From: a virus
Reading direction: 5' to 3' (one strand)
IMG/VR virus record: IMGVR_UViG_3300047364_000021
Coordinates: 1 to 23,910 of that record
DNA: 23,910 nt
The position numbers and the translations under genes were made by a program. The notes under the pieces were generated by a model, which did no database searches, was not told the DNA's origin, and was given only the letters and a program-made list of their open reading frames with translations. Shown here piece after piece: positions 1-23,910 of the stretch (positions are counted from its first letter, which is position 1; every line of letters starts with the position of its first letter).

Positions 1-389
1 TATTCGCGTGCGCAGGTCCAATGACAACGCAGAAACCGACATTGGATTTAGCACGAACGAATTAGACACGACTGCACTTGCGGCGCATTGCGGTTCTAAT
101 GACGGTTTTGTAGTGACTTGGTACGACCAAAGCGGAAACGCTAACAACGCGACACAGAGCACGACGGCGAATCAGCCAAAGATTTACGACGGCACTACGG
201 GCGTGGTGACGGAGAACGGAAAGCCTGCTGTAGAGTTTGATGCCAGCAACGATACAATGGTATCATCTTTCAGTAGCAGTTCCAACTACAGCGTCTTTCA
301 GGTTTTTGCGCAATTGCAAATTTTGACCACTGGCAATTTGTTTAGCACGATTGACTACGGAACAAGCGGCGCAAAGTCAGGCGTTCAAG
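1..389 (+). repeat. Left-hand copy of the terminal repeat segment
   Basis: Partner of 23519-23910. The two copies encode nearly the same protein (differences around residues STNELDTTA versus NVFGELSTVS, A/T, N/D and V/F), and the reading frame passes from the right end to base 390 without interruption. Confidence 0.85.
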
Positions 390-691
390 TTAGAAACAGT
401 CAATATTTTGTCAGAGGTAATGGCGGAAATTTTGGATCACAAGATTTGAATCAAAACCTGATTGAGGTTACTCATGATAGCGGACAATTTGATTTTGTTA
501 AAAACGGTACAAGCGTTGCAAGTGCCTCAAGCACCTTGGTTGCTATTGACGGCGTGACCATAAACAGGCTAATTGGAAGTACAAGATATGCAAGCGGACA
601 GTGGCAGGAGTTGATAGTTTACCCATCAAGCCAATCTAGCAATCGCTCAGGAATCGAATCGAACATCAACACCTTTTACAGCATCTTCTAA
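2..691 (+). CDS. C-terminal part of the neck/fibre protein (GH54-like/LamG-like module), partial at window start
   Basis: The frame is open from the first bases and ends at the TAA at 689-691, giving 229 residues. The segment contains WYDQSGN, a hallmark seen in alpha-L-arabinofuranosidase B (GH54) catalytic-like jelly-roll domains and in many phage tail proteins, followed by ANQPKIYDG and NGKPAVEFDASND; the module closes with a QELIVYPSS strand and a helix ending at the stop. It is the same module as at the right end of the window (from 23449), and both are in the same phase, so a circular map would make this the C-terminus of the 21423 gene. I infer a glycan-binding or glycan-hydrolysing virion appendage; activity cannot be judged from sequence. 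The second half is visibly more AT-rich than the first. Confidence 0.8.
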   Translation: MRVRRSNDNAETDIGFSTNELDTTALAAHCGSNDGFVVTWYDQSGNANNATQSTTANQPKIYDGTTGVVTENGKPAVEFDASNDTMVSSFSSSSNYSVFQVFAQLQILTTGNLFSTIDYGTSGAKSGVQVRNSQYFVRGNGGNFGSQDLNQNLIEVTHDSGQFDFVKNGTSVASASSTLVAIDGVTINRLIGSTRYASGQWQELIVYPSSQSSNRSGIESNINTFYSIF

Positions 692-1092
692 TGGCGCAGC
701 AGTACATCATCGTTTTAGCCGAAGGCACATTGACAAGCGAGAAACGCGCCAAGTCTATCACGCGCGAACTCTACAACATCACAACGCCGCTGGCCGTGCA
801 GGAGCCGTACCAAAAGGAAGGCACCGTATTCGGCGTTATCGTGCATCCTGACGGCGTACAACACGCGCTGCAGGTAGATACCGAGTATACGATTCCCGTA
901 CACGAACAGGCGACGCTGGAAAAGCTGGTCAGCCTCTTTCCTGAACTGACAGCGGAGGAACGGTTTGCATTGCAATCGTATGCGCTCAACACAGACGAGT
1001 TCCCATTTGCCGCCATCATACCCAGCACGACGACGGTGCGGGATCAGGACTACATGGTGCAAAACGGTTGGTTCGAAATAGACGATATTTGA
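691..1092 (+). CDS. Hypothetical protein, 133 aa, following the fibre gene
   Basis: The ATG overlaps the fibre stop (TAATG), so translation is probably coupled. The 133-residue product is soluble, with no signal peptide or membrane segment, and I do not recognise the family. It starts with a beta-rich segment (QQYIIVLAEG), has a middle stretch reading VFGVIVHPDGVQHALQV, and an acidic C-terminus (WFEIDDI). Its position directly behind the appendage gene fits a fibre-associated or fibre-assembly protein, but that is inference from position only. The frame is open and shares the codon style of its neighbours, so the gene itself is likely real. Confidence 0.75.
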   Translation: MAQQYIIVLAEGTLTSEKRAKSITRELYNITTPLAVQEPYQKEGTVFGVIVHPDGVQHALQVDTEYTIPVHEQATLEKLVSLFPELTAEERFALQSYALNTDEFPFAAIIPSTTTVRDQDYMVQNGWFEIDDI

Positions 1093-1502: not shown

Positions 1503-1916
1503 ATGGCCATTTTTAACGGAACAGAATTAGGCGTGTACATTGACACCACGCTAATCGCAGCAGCTACCGACTGCTCGCTGTCTCTTAACACGGAGACAAT
1601 CGACATCACAACCAAGGACAGCGCGGGATACCGTGAGCTGCTCGGCGGTTTGAAGTCAGGTTCAATCAGCTGCAGCGGTTTGATTGACTACGCAGATGCA
1701 GACTCAAACAAGGACCTCGCTGACTTGTGGACCGCTTGGGAAGGTCGCACAGTTTTAACGCTGAAGTTTCAGAAGGCAAACGAGGTGACTGGCGACTTGT
1801 CTTTTACATGCGGCGGCATCATCACAAGCCTCGAGCAGTCAGGCGGCACAGAGGATACAGCTACTTACAGCTGCACCTTTGAGTTGACTGGACCAATCAC
1901 TGACACTGTTGCTTGA
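1503..1916 (+). CDS. Major tail tube protein
   Basis: The 137-residue product has the features of a phage major tail tube protein: N-terminal strand FNGTELGVYIDTTLIAAATD, the conserved TETIDITTKDSAGYRELLGG segment, GSISCSGLIDY, and a late strand with YSCTFELTGPI. The motif 'T(E/D)..D.T.KDS.G..E...G..' is typical of the TP901-1/SPP1-like tube family. The protein polymerises as hexameric rings around the tape measure. It sits immediately before the assembly chaperone pair and tape measure, the canonical siphovirus order. Codons look expression-adapted, as expected for an abundant structural protein. Confidence 0.88.
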   Translation: MAIFNGTELGVYIDTTLIAAATDCSLSLNTETIDITTKDSAGYRELLGGLKSGSISCSGLIDYADADSNKDLADLWTAWEGRTVLTLKFQKANEVTGDLSFTCGGIITSLEQSGGTEDTATYSCTFELTGPITDTVA

Positions 1917-2200: not shown

Positions 2201-2538
2201 ACGGTAACGATAAGCCAGTAGGATGGCAAGACGTGATTCGGATGGGGATGGGTGTGCTACACCTGTCCCCTTCTGCGTTTTGGGAGATGACCTTTGGCGA
2301 GTTGAGCTTGGCGCTGGAGGCGAACCGCGAGACGGCAGAGATGCAGGAGCGCTTTGAGTGGGAGCGCACGCGGTGGCTGGCTACAATCTACATGCAGCCC
2401 CATCTACGGAAAGGCCGTAAATTGCGACCAAAGGATATGATGCAATTCCCTTGGGAGCGACCAAAGCAGAACGCAAAGAAACTGACTAAGGAAGAGCTAA
2501 GAAAAGTAATTGAAGAGCGCGACAAATGGCAAAGCTGA
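2194..2538 (+). CDS. Tail assembly chaperone, downstream frame (T part of the frameshift product)
   Basis: The frame is open from base 2194 to the stop at 2538 and gives 114 residues when reached by -1 slippage; joined to the 93 residues upstream this makes about 207. The segment MGMGVLHLSPSAFWEMTFGE matches the phage TAC pattern 'lgl.P..fw.mT..El', followed by a charged helical C-terminus (KKLTKEELRKVIEERDKW). An independent start at the in-frame GTG at 2233 is possible and would give 101 residues, but no strong initiation signal is present. The stop overlaps the tape-measure start by 13 bases. Confidence 0.8.
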   Translation, partial: SVDGNDKPVGWQDVIRMGMGVLHLSPSAFWEMTFGELSLALEANRETAEMQERFEWERTRWLATIYMQPHLRKGRKLRPKDMMQFPWERPKQNAKKLTKEELRKVIEERDKWQS

Positions 2539-4481
2539 ACGATCTCATAGTAACGATAGGCGCACAAACAAAGCAGTTTGACAAAGCGCTGGGCAGCAGC
2601 ATGTCCAAGATGCGCAACTTTGGACGCAGCACCAAGCGCCTTGGTAAGAGCATGACGATGAACCTGACGGCGCCTATTGCGGCGCTCGGGTTTACAGCCG
2701 TCAAAGCATTTGACCAGCAGCAGAAAGCGATAGCACAAGTCGAGGCAGGCCTGAAGTCCACAGGCGCCAGCGTAGGCTTTACTTCGAAGCAGCTGCAGAA
2801 GATGGCGAGCGACCTGCAGAGTAAGACGCTATTCGGTGACGAGGAGATTCTGAAGGACGCGACGGCACAGCTGCTGACGTTTACCAACATCACAGGCGAC
2901 CAGTTCGCCAAGAGCCAAGAGGCGGCGTTGAACCTTGCCACACGATTGGACGGCGACCTAAAGAGTGCCAGCATCATGTTGGGTAAGGCGCTCAACGATC
3001 CAGTTGCAAACCTGAGCGCAATGAGCCGCGCGGGTATTCAGTTCAGCGAGGACCAAAAGGAGGTTATCAAGTCGCTTGCTGAGAGCGGCGACATGGCGCA
3101 GGCGCAGAGCATCATACTGGAGGAGCTGGAGAAGCAGTACGGAGGCAGTGCTGAAGCTGCAGCCAAGGCGGGCACGGGTGGCCTCAAGCAACTGGCCAAC
3201 GCATTCGGCGACCTGCAGGAGGAGTTCGGTAAGATTATCATGGAGTTTTTGCCGCCAGTCATTGACGGCCTCAAGAATATGTTAGCAGCATTTCAGAACC
3301 TCAGCCCACAAGCCAAGCGATTTATGGTTATTGGTTCAGGTATTGCCGCTGCATTGGGGCCGCTGCTTGTAATACTGCCGTCATTGATACAGGGCTTCAT
3401 GGCGCTGCTTTCACCTGTCGGCCTCATTGTTGGCGCCATTGTAGCGCTGGGCATTGCCATCGTGACGTTTGCCGATGAGGTTGCTGTGCCGATCACAGCA
3501 GTAGCCAACTACTTTATCACGCTGTACAACGAAAGTGCAGCGGTGCGCGGCATCATTGGAGCCATCAAGGGCACAGTGCAAACCGTGTTCGACTTCTTTG
3601 CGTTTGCCGTCAACAACGTAATTGAGAGCTTCAAAGACCTTGGCGCAATAGTTAAGGCCATTTTCACACGTGACTTTGCTGCGATTCCTGAGCTGGTCCG
3701 TACAGCGTTTAGCGATGCAGCAGAACGCACTGCAGAGTTTGGCAGAAAGGCCGCCGAGAACATTCGCACAGGCATCGAGGAGGAGTTGAAGCGCGACCCG
3801 ATACAGCTCTTAACTGAGGAGGGCGTGGCGGAATCACTGAGGACGCTTGGAGGTTTGACCAACTTGCTACCAACTGCAGGAGGTGTTGCAGGTGGAGGAG
3901 GTGGCGCAGGTGAAGCAGCAGTGACTGTTCCTGCTGCGCTCAACATTGTCGACATCGACATGCCTGAAGACATCGTGGAAGATGAGGACATTGACGCGGT
4001 GATTGCGGCCAGCACAGCAGTACAGAACCGCATGAACGCCATGGCGCAGGCCGTTGCAGGTTTTGTAGATAGCGCCTTCCAACAAATTGCAAGCGGCACG
4101 GCTACGTTCGAGCAGGTGATGCTGGACATGATTAAGCGCTTGGCCATGCAGCTCGCATCGCTGGTGGCACAGTTCATGATTCTGTCTGTATTGTTTCCGA
4201 ATGTTGGTATGGTAAAAGGCGGCCTTGGCAAGTTTATCACTGGCGGATTTGGCTTACCAATGATGGCAAACGGCGGACTGTTTACAGGCGCATCACTTGC
4301 AATGGTCGGCGAAGGCTCAGGCACCAGCAGTGTGAACCCCGAGGTGGTGGCACCGCTCGACCGCCTGCAGGAAATGATGGGCGGCCAGCAGGTGCAAGTC
4401 ACTGGTAAGATTTCAGGCCGCGACATCTTGCTGACCAGCGAGCGCAATGCAATTGACCGTAACCGTGTAAGAGGATTTTAA
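2526..4481 (+). CDS. Tape measure protein
   Basis: The 651-residue protein is alanine- and glycine-rich and mostly helical. It opens with LNDLIVTIGAQTKQFDKALG and has the tape-measure N-terminal segment SMTMNLTAPIAALGFTAVKA. Residues ~265-320 are strongly hydrophobic (GIAAALGPLLVILP, SPVGLIVGAIVALGIAIVTF), giving two or three membrane-type segments, with another near residue 550. Tape measures set tail length at about 0.15 nm per residue, so a tail of roughly 95-100 nm is expected (inference). It overlaps the chaperone T frame and its stop overlaps the next ATG (TAATG). No lytic domain is visible. Confidence 0.9.
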   Translation: MAKLNDLIVTIGAQTKQFDKALGSSMSKMRNFGRSTKRLGKSMTMNLTAPIAALGFTAVKAFDQQQKAIAQVEAGLKSTGASVGFTSKQLQKMASDLQSKTLFGDEEILKDATAQLLTFTNITGDQFAKSQEAALNLATRLDGDLKSASIMLGKALNDPVANLSAMSRAGIQFSEDQKEVIKSLAESGDMAQAQSIILEELEKQYGGSAEAAAKAGTGGLKQLANAFGDLQEEFGKIIMEFLPPVIDGLKNMLAAFQNLSPQAKRFMVIGSGIAAALGPLLVILPSLIQGFMALLSPVGLIVGAIVALGIAIVTFADEVAVPITAVANYFITLYNESAAVRGIIGAIKGTVQTVFDFFAFAVNNVIESFKDLGAIVKAIFTRDFAAIPELVRTAFSDAAERTAEFGRKAAENIRTGIEEELKRDPIQLLTEEGVAESLRTLGGLTNLLPTAGGVAGGGGGAGEAAVTVPAALNIVDIDMPEDIVEDEDIDAVIAASTAVQNRMNAMAQAVAGFVDSAFQQIASGTATFEQVMLDMIKRLAMQLASLVAQFMILSVLFPNVGMVKGGLGKFITGGFGLPMMANGGLFTGASLAMVGEGSGTSSVNPEVVAPLDRLQEMMGGQQVQVTGKISGRDILLTSERNAIDRNRVRGF

Positions 4482-6880
4482 TGGCTGACCCGATCCGACT
4501 ATTCGCTGAGTTTCAAGACGACCTCGGCACAGCGTACAAGCTGAACATTCACGAAGCTGGATACGGCGGCAGTACGCGCGAGTTTAACCTCGGCGCTGAT
4601 GGTTTTACCTTACGCTACAGCGGAAACAACGAGGACCGCATGCAGCCAATTATTGGTAGCGAGGTGACGTTCACGTTGGTAGAAAACGAAGCGGCGCACA
4701 CTACGTTTCTGACCGCGTTAGCCACGAGTGAAGACGCCGATTTTACGGTCAGCATATTCAAAGACCCTGACGGCGCCAATACTTTGTTTTGGACGGGCGT
4801 GCTGCTGCACGAGCAGGTCGAGCTGCAGGACGAGGCATATCCAATACAGAACACCATGACAGCGGTGGACGACTTAGGCAACCTGAAAAACATTACATAC
4901 GATAACAACGGCACTTTTTTCACAGGTCAAAATACTATTGTCGAACACCTGACCAAGCTACTAAACAAGACGCGCGCGCTGCATGTATTTGCTAGCGGCG
5001 ACGTGTTTCTAAAATACGCCAACGACTTCAAACCAACGACGTTCTTAAGCGCAAACGCCTTGATTGAACTACAGGTTGGACACGCAGCGTTTTACAACCT
5101 TGACGACGCAGGCAACGCGCAGGGCATGGACTGCTTTACCGTGCTGAAAAACTTTGCCATCACGTTTAACGCTCGCGTGTTCCTGCACGAAGGATGTTTC
5201 TACTTTGTGCCTGTAGGTGCCGTCATTAACAACACCACCGTAAACTTGTTTACAGTGACTAAAGCGGGCACCATTAGTGGATCGGCCACAGCAACTGATA
5301 CACAGCTAACAGTTGACACCGATATGGAGCGCATGCGCGGAGGCGTGACGACCTTTTTGCCGCCGCTCAACAAGGTGCAGCGTACTTGGCGCACCGATGC
5401 CAACCTGCCCGTGGTCGGTCCTGAAACGCAGTTCCTAAACGCTACATCACAGCAGACGGAACTGGGTACAGACATCACCGACAACAACCTGCTGTATGAT
5501 AACGGCACAGAGTTCCGCTTGCGCTTTAGGTATACACATGCTTATGATGGTGACGGCACAAGCACAGGTGACGACGTGCCTGCACGCATCTTGCTCAAGA
5601 TGCAAATCAAGGTTGGTAGCTTGTACTACAACAACGCGGTCACATTCGGGCCAAGCACTATGAATGTGGGTTATGCTGGTGATGCTTACACTATGGACAC
5701 AATGACGTTTAGCGCGCCAGCATGGTCATCAAGTGCAGGCCATTTCTACTTTGCCGTGACGCCGACACCAGCATATTTAAACAGGAACAACGGCCTGTTC
5801 TACAACTTGACGTTTACGCCGCAAGGTTTTGCGAGCATTGCCCAATACAATCAACCTGTGCTGATTGACTTAGATGGCATAACAAGTGCGCAAACAGGAT
5901 TAACAGTTACCGTCAACGTAGAAGGGTATGACCACGATGGCACGCTAATCACGGATGTAACTGGTACAGATGCGTATGGGAAGCTCGAAGGCTTTGGCAT
6001 GTTTGTCGTCAACGGCAATGCAACCAATGGCGACCGCGTAGTGTATGAGGCGTTGACGACGTCGAACAACCAAGAAACACTGACGCAGGATGAGGTCGTT
6101 ATTGGATCGAGCATATTTGAGGATCACCGCAACATTTACGAGAACAACAGCTCACCAGCACAACCAGTTGACAGCTTTGCGAGCTTTGCAAACAGCTCGG
6201 CAACTTTAAGCATTCACCAGCTTGGTGTCAAGGAGGTAATTTCGGGCCAAAACTTTAGCACGCGAGTAAAGCGCGGGAGCTTTTACAAGGCGTTCGTTAG
6301 CCCATACCACGCGCTGCTGTTTTCAACGCGCAACTTTTTGCCGTTTGAAACTACGTTCATCGCGCGTGCCGTGCAGACAGAGTACGAAGCCTTTCACATC
6401 AGCAGCGACGACACCAACGTAAGCACGCCAACGCCTGAGGTAATCAATGACCGGCCACCCATTGACGACAGTGAGCCAGTGTACGACTTGCGCAATACGT
6501 TCACGCCGTCTGAAGGTGACATACCGCCCAACATTTTTCAGCGGTTCCTGCAGAGCGACGTGCGTGCGATAGCGCACAGAGACACCTTGACCAATACAGT
6601 GAACGATTTTGACGATCGCATCTTTAACACATGGCAAGGCGGCACAGGAACGGCGACGTTGAACCTGCCAGTAGTATCAGGCAACGAAGGGCGGTTGATA
6701 CGCTTCCATTCTGATACATCGATTGCAGCGAACAAGCGCGTGTTGATACAGCCTAACCCGAGCGATTCAGGTGTCACCATTGACGGCGCATCGAACTATG
6801 CCTTTGATAGAGATTACGACGGCGTGGCAATCTTGTGCCATGGCGGGCAGTGGTACGTTGTACAGAAGAAAGAAAAATGA
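4481..6880 (+). CDS. Large tail-tip protein (baseplate hub/distal tail-like), 799 aa
   Basis: This 799-residue, beta-rich protein follows the tape measure directly, the position of the distal tail and hub proteins. The first ~150 residues (IRLFAEFQDDLGTAYKLNI, then FNLGADGFTLRYSG and an FTLVENEAAHTTFL strand) look like a distal-tail/hub N-terminal domain; the middle part is a long beta-structured region, and residues ~715-799 (GGTGTATLNLPVVSGNEGRL to GGQWYVVQKK) form a C-terminal fibre-like beta domain. No catalytic motif is evident. It is the only large tail-tip gene, so it may combine roles that other phages spread over two or three proteins. The exact family is not recognised. Confidence 0.72.
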   Translation: MADPIRLFAEFQDDLGTAYKLNIHEAGYGGSTREFNLGADGFTLRYSGNNEDRMQPIIGSEVTFTLVENEAAHTTFLTALATSEDADFTVSIFKDPDGANTLFWTGVLLHEQVELQDEAYPIQNTMTAVDDLGNLKNITYDNNGTFFTGQNTIVEHLTKLLNKTRALHVFASGDVFLKYANDFKPTTFLSANALIELQVGHAAFYNLDDAGNAQGMDCFTVLKNFAITFNARVFLHEGCFYFVPVGAVINNTTVNLFTVTKAGTISGSATATDTQLTVDTDMERMRGGVTTFLPPLNKVQRTWRTDANLPVVGPETQFLNATSQQTELGTDITDNNLLYDNGTEFRLRFRYTHAYDGDGTSTGDDVPARILLKMQIKVGSLYYNNAVTFGPSTMNVGYAGDAYTMDTMTFSAPAWSSSAGHFYFAVTPTPAYLNRNNGLFYNLTFTPQGFASIAQYNQPVLIDLDGITSAQTGLTVTVNVEGYDHDGTLITDVTGTDAYGKLEGFGMFVVNGNATNGDRVVYEALTTSNNQETLTQDEVVIGSSIFEDHRNIYENNSSPAQPVDSFASFANSSATLSIHQLGVKEVISGQNFSTRVKRGSFYKAFVSPYHALLFSTRNFLPFETTFIARAVQTEYEAFHISSDDTNVSTPTPEVINDRPPIDDSEPVYDLRNTFTPSEGDIPPNIFQRFLQSDVRAIAHRDTLTNTVNDFDDRIFNTWQGGTGTATLNLPVVSGNEGRLIRFHSDTSIAANKRVLIQPNPSDSGVTIDGASNYAFDRDYDGVAILCHGGQWYVVQKKEK

Positions 6881-6999
6881 TTTATATTATCTTAGCAACC
6901 GTGGTGGCTAACATCATATACAAGGCCAAGCAATATGGCCGAGGTGATATTGCCGACGTTATCATACTTCTTGCAGCCATCTCTATAGCCCTATTATGA
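6877..6999 (+). CDS. Tiny membrane protein, 40 aa, holin candidate
   Basis: This gene is short but fits exactly: its ATG overlaps the upstream stop (ATGA at 6877-6880) and its TGA overlaps the endolysin ATG (6996-6999). The product has two hydrophobic stretches (MIYIILATVVANIIY and IADVIILLAAISIALL) around a charged loop (KAKQYGRGD). Two short membrane helices directly upstream of the endolysin and coupled to it suggest a holin or antiholin-like role; this rests on size, topology and position. Confidence 0.6.
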   Translation: MIYIILATVVANIIYKAKQYGRGDIADVIILLAAISIALL

Positions 7000-7358
7000 G
7001 ATACTTCAACTATCATGAGTTCAACTGCCCCATCGAGGGGGAAGGAAGTGGTGAGCGCATGATGGACGAAACTTTTCTTGACATGCTTGACCGCGCTCGC
7101 GCAATTGCTGGCATCCCCTTTGTGGTGACGAGTGGGTACAGATCAGAGGCAGAAAATCGGAGGTGTGGAGGGGTCAAGGACTCGGCGCATATGAAGGGCC
7201 TCGCGGCTGACATCCGCTGCAGGAACTCACGAGAACGTGCTTATATCGTCGGCGCGCTTATTGACGCTGGCTTTCACCGCATAGGTTTAGGCGACGGCTT
7301 CGTGCATTGCGATGCTGACGAAACCAAAGACGAGGATGTCATTTGGCTATATCCATGA
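6996..7358 (+). CDS. Endolysin, M15-family zinc D,D/L,D-carboxypeptidase
   Basis: The 120-residue protein is a compact M15 peptidase (Peptidase_M15_3/VanY-like). It starts with YFNYHEFNCP, typical of this phage group, then has SGYRS (residues 46-50), the zinc motif SxHxxGxAxD as SAHMKGLAAD (H65, D72), and the second metal site FVHCDAD (H104, D106). All metal ligands are present. It would cleave peptidoglycan stem peptides at the end of infection. There is no signal peptide or SAR anchor, so it should need a holin. The next gene overlaps it by ATGA at 7355. Confidence 0.9.
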   Translation: MRYFNYHEFNCPIEGEGSGERMMDETFLDMLDRARAIAGIPFVVTSGYRSEAENRRCGGVKDSAHMKGLAADIRCRNSRERAYIVGALIDAGFHRIGLGDGFVHCDADETKDEDVIWLYP

Positions 7359-8191
7359 AGATTGAACAAATCAGCCGCACCGTCCACGCCGTCAAGCTGG
7401 ACAAGCAACCGCAGCGTATGCTGTTTATTTCTGACGTCCACTATGATAGCGTGAAGTGCGACCGCGTGATGCTGCGCAGGCACCTTGACGAAGCCAAGCG
7501 AACGAACACGCCCGTGTTCATCTTTGGCGACTGGTTCGACTTGATGGGTGGTAAGTACGATCCGCGGTCCAGCTACAGCGACATCCGACCTGAGTACAAA
7601 AGTATCACGTACCTCGACGACGTCATCGAAGACAGCGCCGAGTTCCTGACCAAGTACAAGGACATCATCAAGTTCTTTTGCCGTGGCAACCACGAGACGA
7701 ACATAGAGAAGCGTATGCACACCAGCCCGCTTGACCGCGTGGCGTACATCGTAAACAAGAACGGCGGCAACATAACCGTTGCAGGCTACAGCGGCTGGCT
7801 GTGGATGCAGATGTACACAAAAGGCAAGCGCCGCAGCTCGACGTTCGTACACTACCATCACGGCATGGGTGGCAACGCCCCACGATCTAAAGGCGTGCTG
7901 CGTGTTGACATTGACCAAATGCAGTTCAAAGACGCCAGCTTGATCGTGCGCGGGCACACACATCAGAAGTGGCACCTGCCTGTGACGTCGGACCGCATCA
8001 GCCGCTTTGGTAAGCTGTATCAAGACAGCGTTCACCATTTGCAGCTCGGCAGCTACAAGATGCTCGGCGACCGCTTTGCAGGTTGGGCGACCGAGAAAGG
8101 CTTCAACACGCCACGCCTTGGCGGTTGGTTTGTTACCTTGCACAACTCACATCACGATCAACCATACTGGAAGGTCGAAGAAGCACAATAA
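7355..8191 (+). CDS. Calcineurin-like metallophosphoesterase, 278 aa
   Basis: I use the ATG at 7355, overlapping the endolysin stop (ATGA); an in-frame TTG at 7343 is less likely. All core motifs of the dimetal phosphoesterase superfamily are visible: FISDVHYD (D27, H29), FGDWFD (D59), CRGNHE (N112, H113), VHYHHG (~residue 167) and RGHTHQ (H201, H203). Members include lambda-type protein phosphatases, Mre11/SbcD nucleases and phosphodiesterases; length and the lack of a capping domain do not settle the substrate. Placement between endolysin and a small membrane protein is odd for a repair nuclease and puts it under late expression. Confidence 0.88.
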   Translation: MKIEQISRTVHAVKLDKQPQRMLFISDVHYDSVKCDRVMLRRHLDEAKRTNTPVFIFGDWFDLMGGKYDPRSSYSDIRPEYKSITYLDDVIEDSAEFLTKYKDIIKFFCRGNHETNIEKRMHTSPLDRVAYIVNKNGGNITVAGYSGWLWMQMYTKGKRRSSTFVHYHHGMGGNAPRSKGVLRVDIDQMQFKDASLIVRGHTHQKWHLPVTSDRISRFGKLYQDSVHHLQLGSYKMLGDRFAGWATEKGFNTPRLGGWFVTLHNSHHDQPYWKVEEAQ

Positions 8192-8192
8192 C

Positions 8193-8363
8193 ATGAAAGA
8201 GATTCTCTCACTTTACTGGGCCGAGATTGCACTGGCCATTTTAACTGCTGCAGGTACCATTACTGCACTGACCGCAACTGAGAAGGATGACAAGGTCATT
8301 GACATTCTCAAGCGCATCATTAACGCCGTAGTGTTCGGCGATAGCAAAAGAGGACGGAAATAA
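8193..8363 (+). CDS. Small membrane protein, 56 aa, last gene of the late operon
   Basis: The ATG at 8193 follows the phosphoesterase stop by one base. The 56-residue product has one hydrophobic segment at residues ~8-28 (YWAEIALAILTAAGTITAL), a short amphipathic helix (DKVIDILKRIINAVVFG) and a basic tail (DSKRGRK). Such single-pass proteins are common at the end of the lysis genes of Bacteroidota phages and may act as holin or holin regulator; the function is inferred from position. A terminator follows 64 bases downstream. Confidence 0.7.
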   Translation: MKEILSLYWAEIALAILTAAGTITALTATEKDDKVIDILKRIINAVVFGDSKRGRK

Positions 8364-8365
8364 CC

Positions 8366-8373
8366 TATATTTG
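8366..8373 (+). promoter_or_regulatory. TATATTTG box (exact TAnnTTTG), possible promoter of a short transcript
   Basis: TATATTTG is an exact match to the Bacteroidota -7 element and lies just after the late-operon stop. No convincing -33 TTTG is found at the usual spacing. Transcription from here would run only ~80 bases to the terminator at 8427-8461, so it would give a short RNA unless read through. Confidence 0.3.
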
Positions 8374-8426
8374 CTACGTCCAAGGTGGACAAGTAAACCT
8401 TTATTTCATCAGGTTTTTGGTTTTGG

Positions 8427-8461
8427 AGCGGCACTCTTGCAGGGGGGTGCCGCTTTTTTTT
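8427..8461 (+). terminator. Rho-independent terminator between late and early genes
   Basis: AGCGGCAC (8427-8434) pairs perfectly with GTGCCGCT (8447-8454) around a 12-base loop, and the stem runs into a tract of eight T (8454-8461). It closes the late transcript before the early region. Confidence 0.88.
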
Positions 8462-16121: not shown

Positions 16122-17309
16122 ATGGCTAACTGGTTCCAAAGAATTTTTCAGCGTGACGGCTATCAAGTAGCGTACACAGGTCACCACAGTTTCGCATCGC
16201 ACTTGCGCGGTATCAGCACGCGGGCGGGTGCTTTTGTAGACACCGAGTCAGCCATGGGCTTGTCCACAGTTTACGCTTGCGTCCAGCGCATCAGCAGCAC
16301 GATCGCGCAGCTGCACCTCGACGTTATGCGACGAACCGAGAACGGAGTGCAGGTAAGCGTCGGCCACACCATTCAGGACCTCATCAGCGTAGAGGCGGAA
16401 GAAGGCTACACAGCCTACGACTTTTGGCAGACCTACGTGGCGAATATCTTGATCTATGGCAAGGCTTACGCCATCATCAAGCGCCTACCCAATGGCGACC
16501 CGTATGAGCTTTGCATTGTCAACCCCAAGTCGGTAAAGGAGAAGATGGTTGACGGTGAGGTGATGTACGAGGTCAAGGACCGTGGTGTGTACATGCACGC
16601 CGACATGCTGCGCGTCTGCAACCTGTACGGACAAAGCCCGATTGAATTGCACCGCGAGATGCTCGGACTCGCCAAGGCAGCGCAGGACTTTGCTGCTGAG
16701 TTCTTTGGTAGCTCAGGCAACATGACTGGCATCTTGTCCAGCAACGAGCCGCTGAAGAAGGAGCAGATTGACATCATTAAAGACAGCTGGAACAATAGCG
16801 GCGACCAGCTCGGCACTAAGCTCCTGCCATTCGGCTTCCGTTACGATCGCATCGCAGTTGATCCTGAGAACGCGAGCCTGACCGAGCAGCGCGACTTTTT
16901 GAATCAGGAGATATGCCGAATCTTTGGTGTACCGCCGAGCCTTGTGGGTGTGCAGTCGAATGTGACGTACAGCAATACGGAGCAGCAGGCCATCCAGTTC
17001 GCCAAGTACACCATCGTACCATGGACTCGGCAGATAGAGCAGGAGATGAATTGCAAGCTCATCGCACCTGACGAGCGCCTGACGCATTTTACACGCTTCG
17101 ACCTTGCAGACCTTTTGCGAGGCGACAGCGTGAGCCGCGCCCAGTATTACGACACGCTGGTGAAGGCGGGCATCATGAGCATCAACGAAGCACGACGCAC
17201 GGAGGACATGAACGGCGTAGCAGGTGGCGACGCTCACATGGTCCAAGTCAATCAGATCGCGCTCGACAAGCTCGACGAGTACAGCACTAAACTCAGCAGC
17301 GGTGTCTAA
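16122..17309 (+). CDS. Portal protein, HK97 family
   Basis: I place the start at the ATG at 16122 (MANWFQRIFQRDGY), ten bases after the terminase stop; an in-frame upstream start at 16089 would overlap terL. The 395-residue product shows the portal signatures: SAMGLSTVYACVQRISSTIA near the N-terminus, FFGSSGNMTGILSS, and ICRIFGVPPSLVG followed by TYSNTEQQAIQFAKYTIVPW and an RQIEQEMN helix. It forms the dodecameric channel for packaging and tail docking. The capsid polyprotein start overlaps its last codons. Confidence 0.93.
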   Translation: MANWFQRIFQRDGYQVAYTGHHSFASHLRGISTRAGAFVDTESAMGLSTVYACVQRISSTIAQLHLDVMRRTENGVQVSVGHTIQDLISVEAEEGYTAYDFWQTYVANILIYGKAYAIIKRLPNGDPYELCIVNPKSVKEKMVDGEVMYEVKDRGVYMHADMLRVCNLYGQSPIELHREMLGLAKAAQDFAAEFFGSSGNMTGILSSNEPLKKEQIDIIKDSWNNSGDQLGTKLLPFGFRYDRIAVDPENASLTEQRDFLNQEICRIFGVPPSLVGVQSNVTYSNTEQQAIQFAKYTIVPWTRQIEQEMNCKLIAPDERLTHFTRFDLADLLRGDSVSRAQYYDTLVKAGIMSINEARRTEDMNGVAGGDAHMVQVNQIALDKLDEYSTKLSSGV

Positions 17310-19923
17310 GGATTATCCACAGGCTGCAGTTAACAACGCCAAGCGTGCGCTTAAGTACGCCGAGGAGAATGGCTGGGGCAGCTGTGGCACACCAGTCGGT
17401 AGGCGCAGAGCATCGCAAATCGCAAGCCGCTCGGAGCTGTCGGACGATGTGATAAAGCGTGTCTATAGTTTCCTAAGCCGCCACGCACAGAACGCTGACG
17501 TGCCTTATGACGAAGGCTGTGGCGGTTTGATGTATGACGCTTGGGGCGGCAAGTCGATGCTGCCATGGGCCAAGAAGAAAGTCAAGGAGATGACCGAACG
17601 CCAGCAGCGCAATCGTGCTGAGGCGCTCAAGAATAAAGTCGAGGAGCACAACAAAGATGTGGACGCTGCACACAAGAAGGCGACCGTGTCCATGCTGGAG
17701 AAGGTATACGACCGAGGCGTGGGTGCATACAAAACGAACCCGTCAAGCGTGCGGCCCTCGGTCAAGACGCCTGAGCAATGGGCCATGGCTCGCGTGAACT
17801 CATTTTTGTATGCCTTGAAAAACGAACGGTTCCGAGGCGGCAAACACGATACTGACCTGTTCCCCAAAGGTCACCCGCTACGATCAAAAGAAAAAGAAGA
17901 AAAGATGGAAGAGAAAAACAGCAAGCAGCTGGCAGAGCTGCGCAATAAATACGGCGACGACGTCGAGCTGAGAACAGCCGAGGTCCGTGCTGCAGGTGAT
18001 GACTCGCTTGTCATCGAAGGCTACGCTGCCAACTTTGAGCAACGCACAGACCTTGGATATTTCAAGGAGGAGATTGCACGCGGTGCATTCGAGGACGTCA
18101 TGGAGGACGACGTTCGGCTGCTGCTCAATCACGACGGCGCACCGATGGCACGCACCACAAACGGCACGCTGGAACTCAGCGTTGACGAGAACGGACTGAA
18201 GTACCGCGCAGCATTGGCCGACACGCAAGACGGTCGCGACATGTACAAGTTGATCAAGCGTGGCGATATCACGCAGTCCAGCTTTGCCTTTACGATTGGC
18301 GAGCAGGAGTTCAGCGAGGACCGCAGCGTGCGCCGCGTGCTGAAGGTGGCACGCCTGTTGGACGTTAGCCCAGTCACGTACCCAGCGTATCCAACCACTA
18401 CGGTGGCAGCGCGACAGATGGCCATGCAAGAGCCTGAGCCAGTAGAAGAAACTGAAACGATTTCAGAGGCGCAACCTGAAAAGCAGGAAGTGCGTACCTT
18501 TGAACAAACAGCGGAAAGTAAGCCCGCAAAACAATTTAAGATTATGAACTTACGCAACTCAAATGATGCGGCCCGCTACATTTCCCAGCTGGAAGACAAG
18601 TTGGCTAACATCAACGCCCTCGCAGAAACCGAGGAGCGAGCGTTGACTTCTGAAGAATTGGAAGAGACGCAAGACATCCACGCAAAGCTCGAAGCTGCAG
18701 AACAGCAGCGCGACGCCCTTGCAAAAAACGAACAGCGCCTCAAGGCTCGTGCCGTTGCCGCCGATGCGGTTGTACGAAGCGACAAGGAAGCTATCAAAGC
18801 AAACGCCAAGTTTGACTTTGGTAAGGCTATGCGCGAATTGTCCAACGGTCAGGCTTTGACAGGTTTGGAGAAGGAAGCATTGGAAGAAGCACGACACGAA
18901 GCATCTTCTCGCGGCCTTGAGATTCGCGGAAACTTTGCGATTCCACAGAGCATGTTGGTTCAAGCCCGTAACGTATACGGTGTTGATTCATCACAGTCAG
19001 GCGTAAACGACGCAGTGACAACTGTAGCCACAGAGGTTACTGAGTTGGTTGGTGCTTTGCGTGCAAACTCTTTGCTTGCAGCTACTGGTGCCACACAGCT
19101 CAACGGCTTTGTTGGCGACATCAAGATGCCATCGCTTCCAACTGATGCCGCTTCTACACCAGTAGAAGGTGCTGCAGTAGGCAGCAACACAGGCGCAATG
19201 GGTTCAGCTACTCTGTCACCGCAACGCATCGCGCAGCAGATGATCGTGACTAAGGAGGCCATGAACCAAACAAGCGGCAACATGAGCAACGTAATCGCTG
19301 CAGACTTTGGTCGAGCTATTGCCATCGCTCAGGACAAGATTGCTTTGAACGCTATTCACGGTGTTGGTGGAGCAGCTGCTTTGGCTGGTCAAACTGGTAC
19401 TGTTGTAGGCCGTGTTGAAACAGGTGACAACGACATCCCAGCTATCACTGCTGACAATGTCCGCGACTTGTGGAGCACAATCACTGCAAACGGTGCAGAG
19501 AACAACACAGCGTTTGTTGCTCACCCGTCTGATTTTGCTTTCTTGATGAGCCTCGCCAACGTTTCAAACGTAAGCGCTTTGGTTGAGAACGGTCAAATCA
19601 TGGGATACAATGTTTTGTCAAGCGGAACAGTGCCGTCAATTGACGCTACTGCTGTCAATGCAAATGAATTCCTGAGCAACGCAGAAGCAGAGCCATTTGG
19701 TGCAAACGGTTCAGCTTTGCGCTTCTTGTACTACGGAGATTGGACAGACTTGTTCTACGCCAACTGGGGTGGATTGGATGTAACTATTGATCCATTCAGC
19801 CAGTTGTCAGAGGGCAATGTTAAGATTGTAGTAGACACTTTCTTCGACGCAAAAGTGCGACGCGCTGAGTCTCTCGGTGCTATGGTATTTGCACAGGAGA
19901 CAATCTTGGGAGCTAACGGATAA
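17302..19923 (+). CDS. Fused prohead protease-major capsid protein with two extra N-terminal domains, 873 aa
   Basis: I start at the GTG at 17302, overlapping the portal stop by 8 bases; an ATG at 17224 in the same frame only translates portal sequence out of phase. Domains: (i) residues ~3-98, a helical module (ENGWGSCGTPVGRRRASQIA, IKRVYSFLSRH, MYDAWGG) found in several phage virion proteins; (ii) ~130-195, a DUF5824-like segment (VYDRGVGAYKTNPSSVRPSV, QWAMARVNSFL); (iii) ~227-370, an S78/U35 prohead protease with LLNHD (catalytic His ~276) and TQSSFAF (catalytic Ser ~325); (iv) from Met415 (nt 18544), HK97-fold major capsid protein with a coiled-coil delta domain. Codons become AT-richer and more uniform in the capsid part, suggesting stronger expression. 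Confidence 0.9.
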   Translation: MSKDYPQAAVNNAKRALKYAEENGWGSCGTPVGRRRASQIASRSELSDDVIKRVYSFLSRHAQNADVPYDEGCGGLMYDAWGGKSMLPWAKKKVKEMTERQQRNRAEALKNKVEEHNKDVDAAHKKATVSMLEKVYDRGVGAYKTNPSSVRPSVKTPEQWAMARVNSFLYALKNERFRGGKHDTDLFPKGHPLRSKEKEEKMEEKNSKQLAELRNKYGDDVELRTAEVRAAGDDSLVIEGYAANFEQRTDLGYFKEEIARGAFEDVMEDDVRLLLNHDGAPMARTTNGTLELSVDENGLKYRAALADTQDGRDMYKLIKRGDITQSSFAFTIGEQEFSEDRSVRRVLKVARLLDVSPVTYPAYPTTTVAARQMAMQEPEPVEETETISEAQPEKQEVRTFEQTAESKPAKQFKIMNLRNSNDAARYISQLEDKLANINALAETEERALTSEELEETQDIHAKLEAAEQQRDALAKNEQRLKARAVAADAVVRSDKEAIKANAKFDFGKAMRELSNGQALTGLEKEALEEARHEASSRGLEIRGNFAIPQSMLVQARNVYGVDSSQSGVNDAVTTVATEVTELVGALRANSLLAATGATQLNGFVGDIKMPSLPTDAASTPVEGAAVGSNTGAMGSATLSPQRIAQQMIVTKEAMNQTSGNMSNVIAADFGRAIAIAQDKIALNAIHGVGGAAALAGQTGTVVGRVETGDNDIPAITADNVRDLWSTITANGAENNTAFVAHPSDFAFLMSLANVSNVSALVENGQIMGYNVLSSGTVPSIDATAVNANEFLSNAEAEPFGANGSALRFLYYGDWTDLFYANWGGLDVTIDPFSQLSEGNVKIVVDTFFDAKVRRAESLGAMVFAQETILGANG
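18495..18546 (+). promoter_or_regulatory. Possible internal expression signal for the capsid part
   Basis: TACCTTTG at 18495-18502 is an exact TAnnTTTG match inside the protease-capsid linker, 41 bases before an in-frame ATG (18544) placed exactly at the start of the delta domain in AT-rich context (ACAATTTAAGATTATG). An independent start here would yield a 459-residue capsid protein of normal length. No -33 element is evident, so promoter status is uncertain. Confidence 0.35.
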
Positions 19924-19947
19924 GGTTAGATTGATTGAATGAGAAAG

Positions 19948-19977
19948 GGCCTCGCAACCATGCGGGGCCTTTTTTTT
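19948..19977 (+). terminator. Rho-independent terminator after the capsid gene
   Basis: GGCCTCGCA (19948-19956) pairs with TGCGGGGCC (19961-19969), one T-G wobble, loop of four, followed by eight T (19970-19977). It would end the head transcript right after the capsid gene. Confidence 0.87.
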
Positions 19978-19984
19978 ATCTTGC
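19977..19984 (+). promoter_or_regulatory. TATCTTGC box, candidate promoter for the connector operon
   Basis: TATCTTGC resembles the Bacteroidota box TATCTTTGC with one T missing and lies at the edge of the terminator T tract. It ends four bases before the ATG at 19989, the same arrangement as at the terS start. A -33 match is not evident. Confidence 0.35.
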
Positions 19985-19988
19985 ACCC

Positions 19989-20561
19989 ATGTACTACACT
20001 TTAGAGATTACTGGCGCAGCTGCCGAGGCCAGCATCGTCAGCACCGCAGACCTCAAGACATTTTTGCGCGTAGACCACAGCGACGAGGACACGCTGATTG
20101 AGGCGCTACGCAGCGCGGCCATCGAGTACGTGCAGAATTATTGCAACGTACAGCTCGGCGACGTCACGGCGGTTATGTATCTCGACGAGTTCCGTGGTAC
20201 GTGGGAAATCCCTGTTGGTCCTGTGCGCAGCATCACCAGCATCGTCTACAACAACACGCCGAGCACGACGCTCACCTTGGCGACCTCGCAATACTACAGC
20301 GACCTCAAGCGCAAGCCCGCACGCATCACCACCATCTCGCCACCGACTGTGCACCCTGATACAAGCAACGGCGTGCAGGTGACGATGGAGTTGGGGTACC
20401 TTGAGGCCGAGGTGCCCGACGGTTTGATTCACGCGATCAAGCTGCTGGTCGCACACTTCTATGAGAACCGCAACATTGTCGTGGTGGGCACCATCACAAG
20501 CGAGGTACCTAACCTGATCCACAGCTTGCTTAATCCTTACCGCGTAATTTCAGACCGATGA
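19989..20561 (+). CDS. Head-tail connector protein, gp6-like
   Basis: The start is the ATG at 19989 (MYYTLEITGAAAEASIVSTA), downstream of the terminator; an in-frame ATG at 19935 lies before the terminator and is unlikely. The 190-residue protein has the connector pattern: VSTADLKTFLRVDHSDEDTL, then EALRSAAIEYVQNYCNVQLG, a central beta part and the closing helix VPDGLIHAIKLLVAHFYENR. This matches the HK97 gp6/SPP1 gp15 family that forms a ring under the portal. It heads a tightly overlapping connector operon. Confidence 0.9.
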   Translation: MYYTLEITGAAAEASIVSTADLKTFLRVDHSDEDTLIEALRSAAIEYVQNYCNVQLGDVTAVMYLDEFRGTWEIPVGPVRSITSIVYNNTPSTTLTLATSQYYSDLKRKPARITTISPPTVHPDTSNGVQVTMELGYLEAEVPDGLIHAIKLLVAHFYENRNIVVVGTITSEVPNLIHSLLNPYRVISDR

Positions 20562-20890
20562 GGATAGGCAAGAGCGACCGACGTATAACGATAGAGCGCT
20601 ATACGACTGCAACGAACGTGTACGGCGAGCGGCGGCTGGACTACACGACGCTGATGACCGTATGGGCTGAGTTGATGAAGACGGGCGAAGGTATGACCGA
20701 GCGCATCAGTACGAACCAAGACATGCCCATTCAGCGCGTGCGCTTTAAGATTCGCAGCAGCAGCGACAGCCGAGGCATCAAGGCTGACGACCGCGTGCTG
20801 TATGACGGCAAGTATTACAACATTCAAGGCATCGAGGAGGTGGGCCGACAGGACCAGCTTGTATTGCTTTGTCAAATTACTGGGACGTAA
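20558..20890 (+). CDS. Head closure/head-tail joining protein (SPP1 gp16-like)
   Basis: The ATG overlaps the connector stop (ATGA at 20558). The 110-residue product has the head-tail adaptor pattern: RIGKSDRRITIERYTTATN, the YGERRLDYTTLMTVWAELM segment, then VRFKIRSSS, ADDRVLYDGKYYNIQGIEEV and a closing strand DQLVLLCQI. These proteins form the ring that closes the filled capsid. Order gp6, gp16-like, gp10-like and terminator is canonical. Confidence 0.88.
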   Translation: MRIGKSDRRITIERYTTATNVYGERRLDYTTLMTVWAELMKTGEGMTERISTNQDMPIQRVRFKIRSSSDSRGIKADDRVLYDGKYYNIQGIEEVGRQDQLVLLCQITGT

Positions 20891-21426
20891 TGGCAAAGGG
20901 CAGCCTCGAAATGAAGGGCGGCGGCGTAGGCTTTGAAGGCATCGGCGTCGACATACAGCCATTGCTGAAGCAGTTCGAAGAATTGCGAAAGCAGGTCAAG
21001 GATAAGGACGTGCAGAAGCGCATCCACCGATCCGTTGGCAACATCTACAAAAAGGAGATGGTGAACAACATCAAGGACGCGCGTGAGGTTATCCGTATTC
21101 GCAGAGGTCAGGACGAAATCAAAGAGCGCGATAATATTCCAATTGGTACGCTGCGCCGCTCCATCCGCGTGTGGCTCATTGACAAGCAGGCCAGCACGTA
21201 CTGGGTAGGGCCTCGCGTAGGTCGCAGGATGCCATACCAAAATGACGGATGGTTTGCTAATATTGTAGAAGGCGGTGACCAAAAGTTTGGCGGCGGCAGA
21301 AACAAGGGCGTGTTTGAGCGCTCTATTCGCAACAAGCGGCAGATGGCGCTCACAACAATGCGCAAAAAGTACGAGTTCCAAATTCGCAAGGCAGCACGCA
21401 AGGCGGCAAAGAAGACAAAGAAATGA
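20890..21426 (+). CDS. HK97 gp10-like head-tail/tail completion protein
   Basis: I select the ATG at 20890 (overlapping the upstream stop, TAATG) rather than an in-frame TTG at 20869. The 178-residue protein has the gp10 layout: a GIDIQPLL-like start (VDIQPLLKQFEELRKQVKDK), IYKKEMVNNIKDA, the strand RRSIRVWLIDKQASTYWVGP, YQNDGWFANIVEGGDQKFGG matching 'yA..vE.G', and a long basic C-terminal helix (RKAARKAAKKTKK). It sits in the neck region in related phages. Its stop overlaps the next ATG. Confidence 0.85.
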   Translation: MAKGSLEMKGGGVGFEGIGVDIQPLLKQFEELRKQVKDKDVQKRIHRSVGNIYKKEMVNNIKDAREVIRIRRGQDEIKERDNIPIGTLRRSIRVWLIDKQASTYWVGPRVGRRMPYQNDGWFANIVEGGDQKFGGGRNKGVFERSIRNKRQMALTTMRKKYEFQIRKAARKAAKKTKK

Positions 21427-23910
21427 ACGCAGGAAAAGCAGTATACGGAATTTTGAGCGCCAACAGCGGCGTCACTGACTTGGTAAGCACGCGCATCTTT
21501 CCTGAGATTGCAGAGCAGGAAGCGGCGACGCCATTTATAGTGTATCAGCTGCAGAGCGTAGCGCCTGAGGATACGCACGACGGACCGTCAAAGCTCGATG
21601 AGGTGCGCTTTGAGTTCCTGTGCTATGCCGACACCTACGACACAGCGGCTGACGTAGGCGTCAAGGTCCGTGCTGCTTTGGATCGTGTGAGCGGAACGTA
21701 CAACGGCGTCAACGTGGAAAGCGTACAGTTCAATGACGTTGACATTGATATTGAATACCAGCCACGCCGATACAGCCAAGTGCTCAAGTTCACCTTTCGC
21801 ATCAAGCGCGACGATTTTACGATTGCACAAGGCACGCCAGTCACGGGTGCGCAACTTGGTCAACTTGCTGACGTAGACGTTGACGGCGTATCGAACGGCC
21901 AGCTAATTGCATACAACAGCACGAGCGGCAACTGGGAAGCGGCGGACGATGCAACAGGCAGCAACACGCTGACAGGTTTAACAGATACCAGCATTACCAC
22001 GCCTGCAGATCGTGAAGCTCTTATCTACGACGGCGGCAACTGGGTCAACGATAACATAAGCAAGTCGGACGTCGGGCTGGGCAACGTGGACAACACCAGC
22101 GACGATGATAAGCCCGTAAGTTCAGCGACGCAAACGGCCTTGAATGCGAAGGCAGACACGAGCGCAGTACCTACGGAGCTGAACGACTTGAGCGACGTGA
22201 CGATAACAGGCACGCCCGCAGGAAACGAGGTGTTGATTTTCGACACGGCTACGAGTTCATTCAAGTCGCTGCCGAACTTTACTAACCGCTTTGAAGACGA
22301 CGCGGAGAACAACAAGCCCGCCACGCCATTTGGGGAGCGGGTGTATACGGTCAAGGCAGACGGGGACGGCATTTTTATTGACGCGCAATCTGACACGCCA
22401 TCAGCGGGCAAGGTTATCGAGCGCAAGATTTACTACAAGGCGGGCTTTCTTGAAAGCGGCGACGCCATCGGCGATTTCACCTTGATCCACACGTTCGCAG
22501 ACGATACCGCTTATTCTGCTACGGAAAGCGTGTTTGAAGGGTTTAGGGATGGTGACACGTACGGCACGCCGCCGTTCACGCTGTTGCAGACGTGGGAGGA
22601 GGCGACAGCAGCGCCAACCTTTACGGGCTTATTAAACGAATCATACGGCAGCGGCGCGGCTGCGGCGTATTCGGTGCGGCGATTGAATGGTAATTACACG
22701 GGCGCGGCGATTGAGGTAGAACGCAGCTCTGACAATACTTATCAGGACATCGGCTTTGATTCCAACGGCGACTTGGACGAGAGCGCACTTACGACGTTCT
22801 GCACGGGTACGACGTGCAAAGTCCGAAGCTGGTACGACCAATCGCAGACGGGCGGCACGGGTTCAGGCAACGACGCAGTACAGACGACGCACGCGAACCA
22901 GCCGACTATTTACACGGGCGGCGCGATTGTGAAGGAGAACGGACGGGTGGCGTTGGATTATGAAGGTTCGCAATCATTGTATAGTTCAGGCGTAAGCATC
23001 GCGGCAAGTATGGATATTTACCATACAACGAAAAAAGACACGTCTACGCGACAGGCTTGGTTTGCGTTTGATGCTTCTTCGAACACCAATTACTTGCGGC
23101 AAGAGGCGACCAGCGAACAAGTATTATTTCAATTTACAGACGGCTTTAATTTTTTCCTATCAGGGAATGCACCCGCCTCAAACAGGTTGACACAAAATCT
23201 ATACAATGCAAATGCAACATCAGGAGCGCAAGAAGTGCGGTTGAATGGTGTTTCTTTATTTACCGATACCGACACATATTCGGCGACAGGGATTAGCGGT
23301 TTGTACATTGGTGTACAAAATAATGGCGCTAATGATTTAGACGGCAAGTATCAAGAGTTCATAATTTATGACAGCGTAAAAAACTCGACCGACCGCAGCG
23401 ACATCGAAGAAAACGTCGGCGACTACTTCACCCAAAACACGCCACTCCTCGACACGTATACAGGAGCGGCGGCGGCCTACTCTTTGCGCAAGCTGCGAAC
23501 TGCCTACAGCGGGAGCGCCGTTCGAGTGCGACGAAGCAACGACAACGCCGAAACCGACATCGGATTTAACGTATTTGGTGAGCTTTCTACGGTGAGCCTT
23601 GCGGCGCACTGTGGTTCGAACGACGGATTCGTGGTGACGTGGTACGACCAAAGCGGGAACACGAACGACGCGACGCAAAGCACGACGGCGAATCAGCCAA
23701 AGATTTACGACGGGACGACGGGCGTGGTGACGGAGAACGGAAAGCCTGCCTTTGAGTTTGATGCAAGCAACGATACAATGGTATCATCTTTCAGTAGCAG
23801 TTCAAACTACAGCGTCTTTCAGGTTTTTGCGCAATTGCAAATTTTGACCACTGGCAATTTGTTTAGCACGATTGACTACGGAACAAGCGGCGCAAAGTCA
23901 GGCGTTCAAG
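21423..23910 (+). CDS. Tail terminator fused to fibre shaft and GH54-like modules (neck appendage), partial at window end
   Basis: The ATG overlaps the gp10-like stop (ATGA) and the frame stays open for 829 codons to the window end. Residues 1-127 match a DUF3168-like tail terminator (GILSANSGVTDLVSTRIFPE, TPFIVYQLQS, VRFEFLCYA, RRYSQVLKFTFRI). Residues ~145-285 hold three fibre-shaft repeats (such as LADVDVDGVSNGQLIAYNST and DLSDVTITGTPAGNEVLIFD) plus SKSDVGLGNVDNTSDDDKP. Two GH54 catalytic-like/LamG-like modules follow (from ~398 and ~676), each with an AYS(V/L)R(R/K)L start and WYDQS; the first has TTFCTGTTCKV, close to fungal GH54 enzymes. If the map is circular, the protein ends at 691 with about 929 residues. 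Catalysis is unproven. Confidence 0.82.
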   Translation, partial: MNAGKAVYGILSANSGVTDLVSTRIFPEIAEQEAATPFIVYQLQSVAPEDTHDGPSKLDEVRFEFLCYADTYDTAADVGVKVRAALDRVSGTYNGVNVESVQFNDVDIDIEYQPRRYSQVLKFTFRIKRDDFTIAQGTPVTGAQLGQLADVDVDGVSNGQLIAYNSTSGNWEAADDATGSNTLTGLTDTSITTPADREALIYDGGNWVNDNISKSDVGLGNVDNTSDDDKPVSSATQTALNAKADTSAVPTELNDLSDVTITGTPAGNEVLIFDTATSSFKSLPNFTNRFEDDAENNKPATPFGERVYTVKADGDGIFIDAQSDTPSAGKVIERKIYYKAGFLESGDAIGDFTLIHTFADDTAYSATESVFEGFRDGDTYGTPPFTLLQTWEEATAAPTFTGLLNESYGSGAAAAYSVRRLNGNYTGAAIEVERSSDNTYQDIGFDSNGDLDESALTTFCTGTTCKVRSWYDQSQTGGTGSGNDAVQTTHANQPTIYTGGAIVKENGRVALDYEGSQSLYSSGVSIAASMDIYHTTKKDTSTRQAWFAFDASSNTNYLRQEATSEQVLFQFTDGFNFFLSGNAPASNRLTQNLYNANATSGAQEVRLNGVSLFTDTDTYSATGISGLYIGVQNNGANDLDGKYQEFIIYDSVKNSTDRSDIEENVGDYFTQNTPLLDTYTGAAAAYSLRKLRTAYSGSAVRVRRSNDNAETDIGFNVFGELSTVSLAAHCGSNDGFVVTWYDQSGNTNDATQSTTANQPKIYDGTTGVVTENGKPAFEFDASNDTMVSSFSSSSNYSVFQVFAQLQILTTGNLFSTIDYGTSGAKSGVQ
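23519..23910 (+). repeat. Right-hand copy of the segment also found at 1-389
   Basis: This stretch aligns in frame with 1-389. The first part differs by many mostly synonymous changes and one codon length difference; the last 106 bases (23805-23910) are identical to 284-389. It is either the overlap of a circular genome assembled from two variants or a tandem copy of the fibre module. Confidence 0.85.

Follow-up and report, generated by a model that had tools for sequence, protein, structure and literature searches.

In a common group of marine phages known from uncultured viral contigs, the tail terminator probably carries on its C-terminus a long, exchangeable adhesin that would be displayed at the neck of the virion. 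The case described here comes from an IMG/VR record, classed as linear, the whole 23,910 bp of which were analyzed and are referred to as the window. A single uninterrupted plus-strand frame runs from position 21423 to the end of the window and encodes 829 amino acids, remaining open at its 3' end; it comprises a tail terminator domain, a fibre shaft, a linker and two modules related to the GH54 catalytic domain (Table 1). The fusion constitutes neither a new terminator family nor a new glycosidase family. A tail terminator that anchors a mobile adhesin cassette is, however, a real, widespread and new variant of neck or tail decoration, for which a neck-mounted appendage would be the most economical reading.

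Table 1. Features of the terminator fusion and of the neighboring genes in the window.
Feature	Position	Strand	Basis
C-terminal end of a terminal-class module with stop codon, same gene type as the fusion	2..691	+	87% identity to window end; ends IESNINTFYSIF
133-aa partner gene (o691) of GH54-type arm	691..1092	+	association with GH54-type arms; travels with cassette
Tail tube protein	1503..1916	+	PF06199 1.1e-16
Tape measure protein	2526..4481	+	phrog_27166 1.2e-66
Large tail-tip gene, 799 aa	4481..6880	+	sole large gene between tape measure and M15 peptidase; same place in relatives
Head-tail adaptor Ad1	19935..20561	+	PF05135, phrog_442
Head closure protein Hc1	20558..20890	+	PF05521 6.6e-16
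HK97-gp10-like neck/tail completion protein, directly upstream of terminator fusion	20869..21426	+	phrog_5 2.6e-6; PF04883 weak
Tail terminator domain, residues 1-127	21423..21803	+	PF11367, phrog_347, AlphaFold and Foldseek
Fibre shaft region, residues 128-270, with 'GNVDNTSDxxKPVS' fibre motif at ~210-252	21804..22232	+	phrog_35419, 13892, 8780; kept in relatives
Beta-rich linker domain, residues 271-401	22233..22625	+	AlphaFold from residue 284 on; alignment
GH54/ConA-like module 1, internal class, residues 402-671	22626..23435	+	PF09206; Foldseek GH54 AbfB E 3.7e-12; class definition
Hypervariable core of module 1, residues 522-641	22986..23345	+	column entropy over 73 modules
GH54/ConA-like module 2, terminal class, cut by window end	23436..23910	+	PF09206 match 23463-23696; class from 'NTPLLDTY' start

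The remainder of the gene is apparently found at the other end of the window, where the first gene finishes in the canonical '...IESNINTFYSIF'. Over 389 bp this gene overlaps the window end with 87% identity, and the final ~106 bp are the same in both. The modules fall into an internal class, ending in '...NIGDYFTQ', and a terminal class, ending in '...NINTFYSIY/F'. Since both window ends lie in a terminal module, closure of the contig would give a two-module protein of ~929 amino acids, with a tandem copy as an alternative; relatives of the fusion are about 900-970 amino acids long, consistent with this figure. A third module, created by joining the two ends, is less likely, given that both ends are of the terminal class and two-module lengths are the norm, and strain variation in the assembly is a better fit to the overlap.

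Residues 1-127 are shown by their family, predicted fold, single copy and gene position to belong to the tail terminators, in agreement with the original prediction of a DUF3168-like domain. The Pfam family PF11367 spans residues 5-127 (2e-13; 51 bits against a curated cut-off of 24.5), and the PHROG family phrog_347, 'tail terminator', matches residues 1-130. The structure-prediction check that had been proposed for this domain was carried out with AlphaFold on residues 1-135, using a 17-sequence alignment (pLDDT 84, pTM 0.80), and a Foldseek search of the PDB with the predicted domain retrieved almost exclusively tail terminators and neck or collar terminator homologues: Mu, T5 p142, Bxb1, R-pyocin, RcGTA (TM 0.74), Milano, lambda gpU and SPP1 gp17. 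The domain is encoded between the neck genes and the tail tube gene. A separate terminator gene elsewhere would have spoken against the prediction; a PF11367 search of 19 whole records (this one and 18 related) found none, and each holds exactly one PF11367 domain, always within the fused frame.

The Bacteroides phage Bacuni_F1 has its genes in the same order (adaptor, Hc1, gp10-like, terminator, tube); a tail completion protein of 129 aa, encoded separately, serves as its terminator and shares 31.5% identity with the domain described here. TP901-1 also has this order, with a 129-aa Ttp whose loss leads to polytails (PMC4493119). The terminators SPP1 gp17, lambda gpU, T5 p142 and TP901-1 Ttp share their domain family (PF11367 and structural kin), predicted fold and gene position with the fusion, but are stand-alone proteins of 129-161 residues, whereas here some 800 more residues of fibre and lectin-like modules follow. 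A stand-alone size of ~130 residues is typical of terminators and not required for function: the present chain has at least 829 residues, against 129 in Bacuni_F1 and in two close relatives from different metagenomes (L084 and L085).

The arm itself begins with a shaft in which residues ~210-252 match three tail fibre or minor tail families of PHROG (phrog_35419, 13892 and 8780). Further along, PF09206, the GH54 catalytic domain, matches two stretches of the fusion (4e-19, above cut-off) and two copies of the WYDQS motif are present, the second module being truncated by the contig end. AlphaFold modeled residues 284-671 with a pLDDT of 84, and Foldseek placed a GH54 arabinofuranosidase first (E 3.7e-12; 6sxt/1wd3), followed by accessory domains of GH43 arabinanases, the PilC minor pilin (ConA-type, lectin) and CBM40; against a viral library the same residues retrieved ConA-like phage proteins. 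A single-sequence search found no solved structure related to the full protein. The fibre shaft and the two GH54/LamG-like modules with the WYDQS signature are confirmed by the phage-fibre families, PF09206, Foldseek and the motif itself. Minor tail or fibre proteins of Gordonia, Arthrobacter and Synechococcus S-CBS4 phages also carry the shaft motif or the module, but are unfused to a terminator in the records inspected.

The modules combine a constant frame with an exchanged center. Over 73 modules the first ~105 and the last ~30 residues are conserved, and ~120 residues in the middle reach column entropies of 2.8-3.4 bits, compared with mostly 0.65-1.3 before them. Between module 1 and its counterparts in three relatives (L007, L008 and L010), dN is 0.09-0.10 in the conserved half and 0.77-0.89 in the next half, and a step so abrupt suggests that the core has been replaced by recombination rather than altered by drift. 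Such replacement of the middle ~120 residues would be expected of a binding surface under diversifying exchange. Together with the predicted GH54/ConA-type fold, also seen in PilC and CBM40, this hypervariability suggests carbohydrate recognition; weak, multivalent binding to glycans, either of the host or of particles, would be the most likely role of the modules.

There are some grounds for regarding the modules instead as enzymes, namely GH54-like glycosidases acting on capsule or slime, which they would trim from their position at the neck. The alpha-L-arabinofuranosidase AbfB (1WD3, 6SXR) is the best fold match and has a WYDQSG-type N-terminal stretch in common with them, PF09206 scores above its cut-off, and a nearly invariant Glu is found in the C-terminal 'QE' strand of the modules; a conserved Glu lies at module column 244. 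We consider this unlikely, however, as detectable sequence similarity to GH54 is restricted to the first ~70-80 residues (chain residues 16-87) and, in the comparison with AbfB, ends after ~75 residues. With respect to the catalytic nucleophile E221 and the acid/base, the profile alignment spans chain residues 16-87 only. The stretch that follows is hypervariable, unlike an active site, and a Pfam search found no C-terminal AbfB arabinose-binding domain. Because the similarity is so confined, a glycosidase function is not supported. True GH54 enzymes that might have served for mapping the catalytic residues were sought in 149 genomes of the phylum of Pirellulaceae, and none was found.

The fusion is conserved well beyond the window. 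Relatives of residues 1-396 are encoded by 147 viral contigs, and among the fetched loci complete terminator-shaft-module frames with one to three modules are present in ~60 from independent assemblies, which argues that the frame is not a one-off sequencing error or mis-join. The uninterrupted frame reported in the original prediction is open throughout the window and complete from start to stop elsewhere, and the search for fusions in related phages that it called for has uncovered them in dozens of marine viral contigs. Among cultured phage records, matches extend to no more than part of the fusion; the cultured terminators inspected are stand-alone, and no description of a terminator-adhesin fusion was found in the literature collection searched. 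One further example, with a terminator 49% identical and a module frame that meets a stop after its conserved first half, is filed under a Pirellulaceae MAG (L149; JAGYIQ010000025.1). This sole bacterial-genome match is a 17-kb contig with phage genes throughout that is possibly mis-binned, and so gives no ground for naming Pirellulaceae as the host.

It is conceivable that the arm is made with the terminator and is then cut off during assembly to act as a separate or soluble adhesin or decoy, given that a structural ring fused directly to ~800 residues invites processing. We see only a small chance of this. Over residues 110-150, dN/dS is 0.03-0.23 against close relatives; there is purifying selection across the terminator-shaft junction, similar to that in its surroundings. 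At the junction in the window, no start codon is accompanied by a clear ribosome site, on which ground an internal start giving a separate fibre was also rejected. Moreover, several types of arm are all attached in frame.

These arm types are borne by near-identical, and sometimes identical, terminators, which carry GH54-like, coiled-repeat or Lcl_C-like arms or none. The arm-less terminators, found in L084 and L085, are 83% identical and followed directly by a 79-aa gene whose counterpart in the window lies at 1068-1307. A coil-repeat fibre arm is found in L086, L105, L107, L127 and others, and in L119 (4155-5306) a short arm has an Lcl_C-like end (E 1.8e-4, below the Pfam cut-off); the Lcl_C-like domain is another adhesion-type domain. 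At least six switches of arm type have to be placed on the terminator tree, where the types are scattered to the same extent as shuffled labels, and in five cases a set of identical terminator domains is spread over two or more arm groups. Chimeric assembly could be the source of a few of these switches; arm type and downstream partner gene agree throughout. Some contigs with coil-type arms encode a GH54-like module in a separate downstream gene (L138:2281-3153, L132:5510-6424 and L133:5306-6247).

The partner of the GH54-type arm is a gene for a 133-aa protein. Where only arms with enough downstream DNA are counted, it adjoins all 45 of the GH54-type arms, none of the 15 other arms and none of the three stand-alone terminators. 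Its product has no Pfam or PHROG family match and no cultured-phage relative, and is perhaps an assembly, folding or attachment factor for the arm. The same ensemble is found on other proteins. In L058, which has a different terminase, a shaft 83% identical, the modules and the partner gene stand behind an unrelated 154-aa N-terminus; this second anchor is encoded by 261 contigs, and those that were fetched contain 36 complete GH54-type frames and 13 long frames of other kinds. Partner genes follow both terminator fusions (72 full frames) and second-anchor fusions (32 complete), as well as seven module proteins with other or truncated N-termini. Shaft, modules and partner gene are thereby shown to move between anchors as a single cassette. 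The N-terminus of L305, one of those seven module proteins, is weakly terminator-like in sequence (PF11367 E 0.045, phrog_347 E 0.019) and may provide a third anchor. In addition, the profile of phrog_10356, 'virion structural protein', joins a head-closure Hc1 N-terminus, rather than a terminator, to the same module family, which suggests that Hc1, another neck protein, may also anchor such modules in some phages.

The second anchor has no match in Pfam, PHROG, the PDB or cultured phages and, being without a recognizable family, lends no independent support to a placement at the neck. The presence of the cassette on N-terminal domains of unassigned place might also be taken to mean that the domain in the window is a terminator paralogue working elsewhere, for instance at the tail tip; this is very improbable, as it is the sole PF11367 domain in each of the 19 records and occupies the same spot as the stand-alone terminator gene of relatives. 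A 40.3-kb contig, L239 (fusion at 4986-8429 of the locus), has the terminase region of the second-anchor phages and window-type tail tube and tape measure genes directly after the cassette, and may have arisen either by recombination at the cassette or by chimeric assembly. That possible chimera and the ending of the window inside a repeated module are what could be said for an assembly artefact joining a terminator gene to a fibre gene, an explanation that can be set aside since dozens of contigs, drawn from many metagenomes, have the same open frame and downstream partner gene, as does one MAG contig.

The neck arm need not be the only surface-binding device of these phages. The large tail-tip gene of the window is without Pfam or PHROG match, and the relatives examined have one tail-tip gene of ~690-800 amino acids after the tape measure and no other recognized fibre gene there. 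The tail-tip gene is also variable among close relatives, which makes it unusable as a conserved control and brings the candidate devices to at least two, the neck arm included. A chaperone-like gene sits between the tail tube and tape measure genes. The gp10-like neck gene differs sharply, at 47-92% identity, between contigs that match the window at 95-100% identity in the connector genes on either side, as if its alleles had been swapped, and its variation has no clear link to arm type. The prohead protease and major capsid protein share one 899-aa frame (17224-19923), preceded by a DUF5824 match.

The nearest known counterpart is the neck passage structure (NPS) of the lactococcal 936 and P335 phages, for which fibres with variable carbohydrate-binding modules have been proposed at the neck (PMC6669499, PMC4493119). 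One NPS module bound host cells, and NPS modules bind weakly (PMC6669499). The NPS is encoded by a separate gene with a BppU-like N-terminus, is proposed to form an 18-mer with a coiled-coil shaft and is non-essential in TP901-1 (PMC6669499, PMC4493119). A constant N-terminal anchor and exchangeable C-terminal modules are common to both systems. However, the anchor here is the tail terminator itself, by direct fusion, and Pfam and PHROG reported no BppU family in the fusion. The earlier view that the arrangement was without known parallel therefore needs qualifying: the lactococcal fibres make it less isolated (PMC6669499), yet they are carried by a separate BppU-like protein.

By analogy with the NPS, our best reading is that a hexameric terminator would act as the socket for an exchangeable neck adhesin, built in this case by direct fusion. 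Six copies of residues 1-127 would assemble into a ring of the usual kind, which ends growth of the tail tube and docks the tail to the head, and the shaft and beta-rich linker would present one to three GH54/ConA-fold modules at the neck. Six chains would be present per virion, perhaps as two trimeric fibres. A C-terminal arm need not run outward: the T5 terminator polymerized aberrantly when tagged at its C-terminus, and the authors suggest that the tag may fold into the lumen (PMC11784142). In a wider and more tentative form, the neck proteins, above all the tail terminator, may serve in general as sockets for an adhesin cassette that is mobile, evolves fast and has a dedicated partner gene, such that recognition at the head-tail junction could be swapped in widespread uncultured marine phages without touching the tail tip; we hold this to be possible, if somewhat short of probable.

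Host recognition in siphophages is usually sought at the tail tip, and the function of neck appendages has largely been left standing as a question since the description of the non-essential whiskers. Arms at the neck would probably give these phages a grip on hosts or surfaces besides that of the tail tip. If so, a gene annotated as 'tail terminator' or 'tail completion' would encode part of the receptor- or surface-binding capacity of a common group of marine phages, and host-range prediction from tail-tip genes only would miss the neck arm. The natural series of arm-less, GH54-type, coil-type and Lcl-type forms on near-identical terminators would provide a ready comparison for the function of neck appendages.
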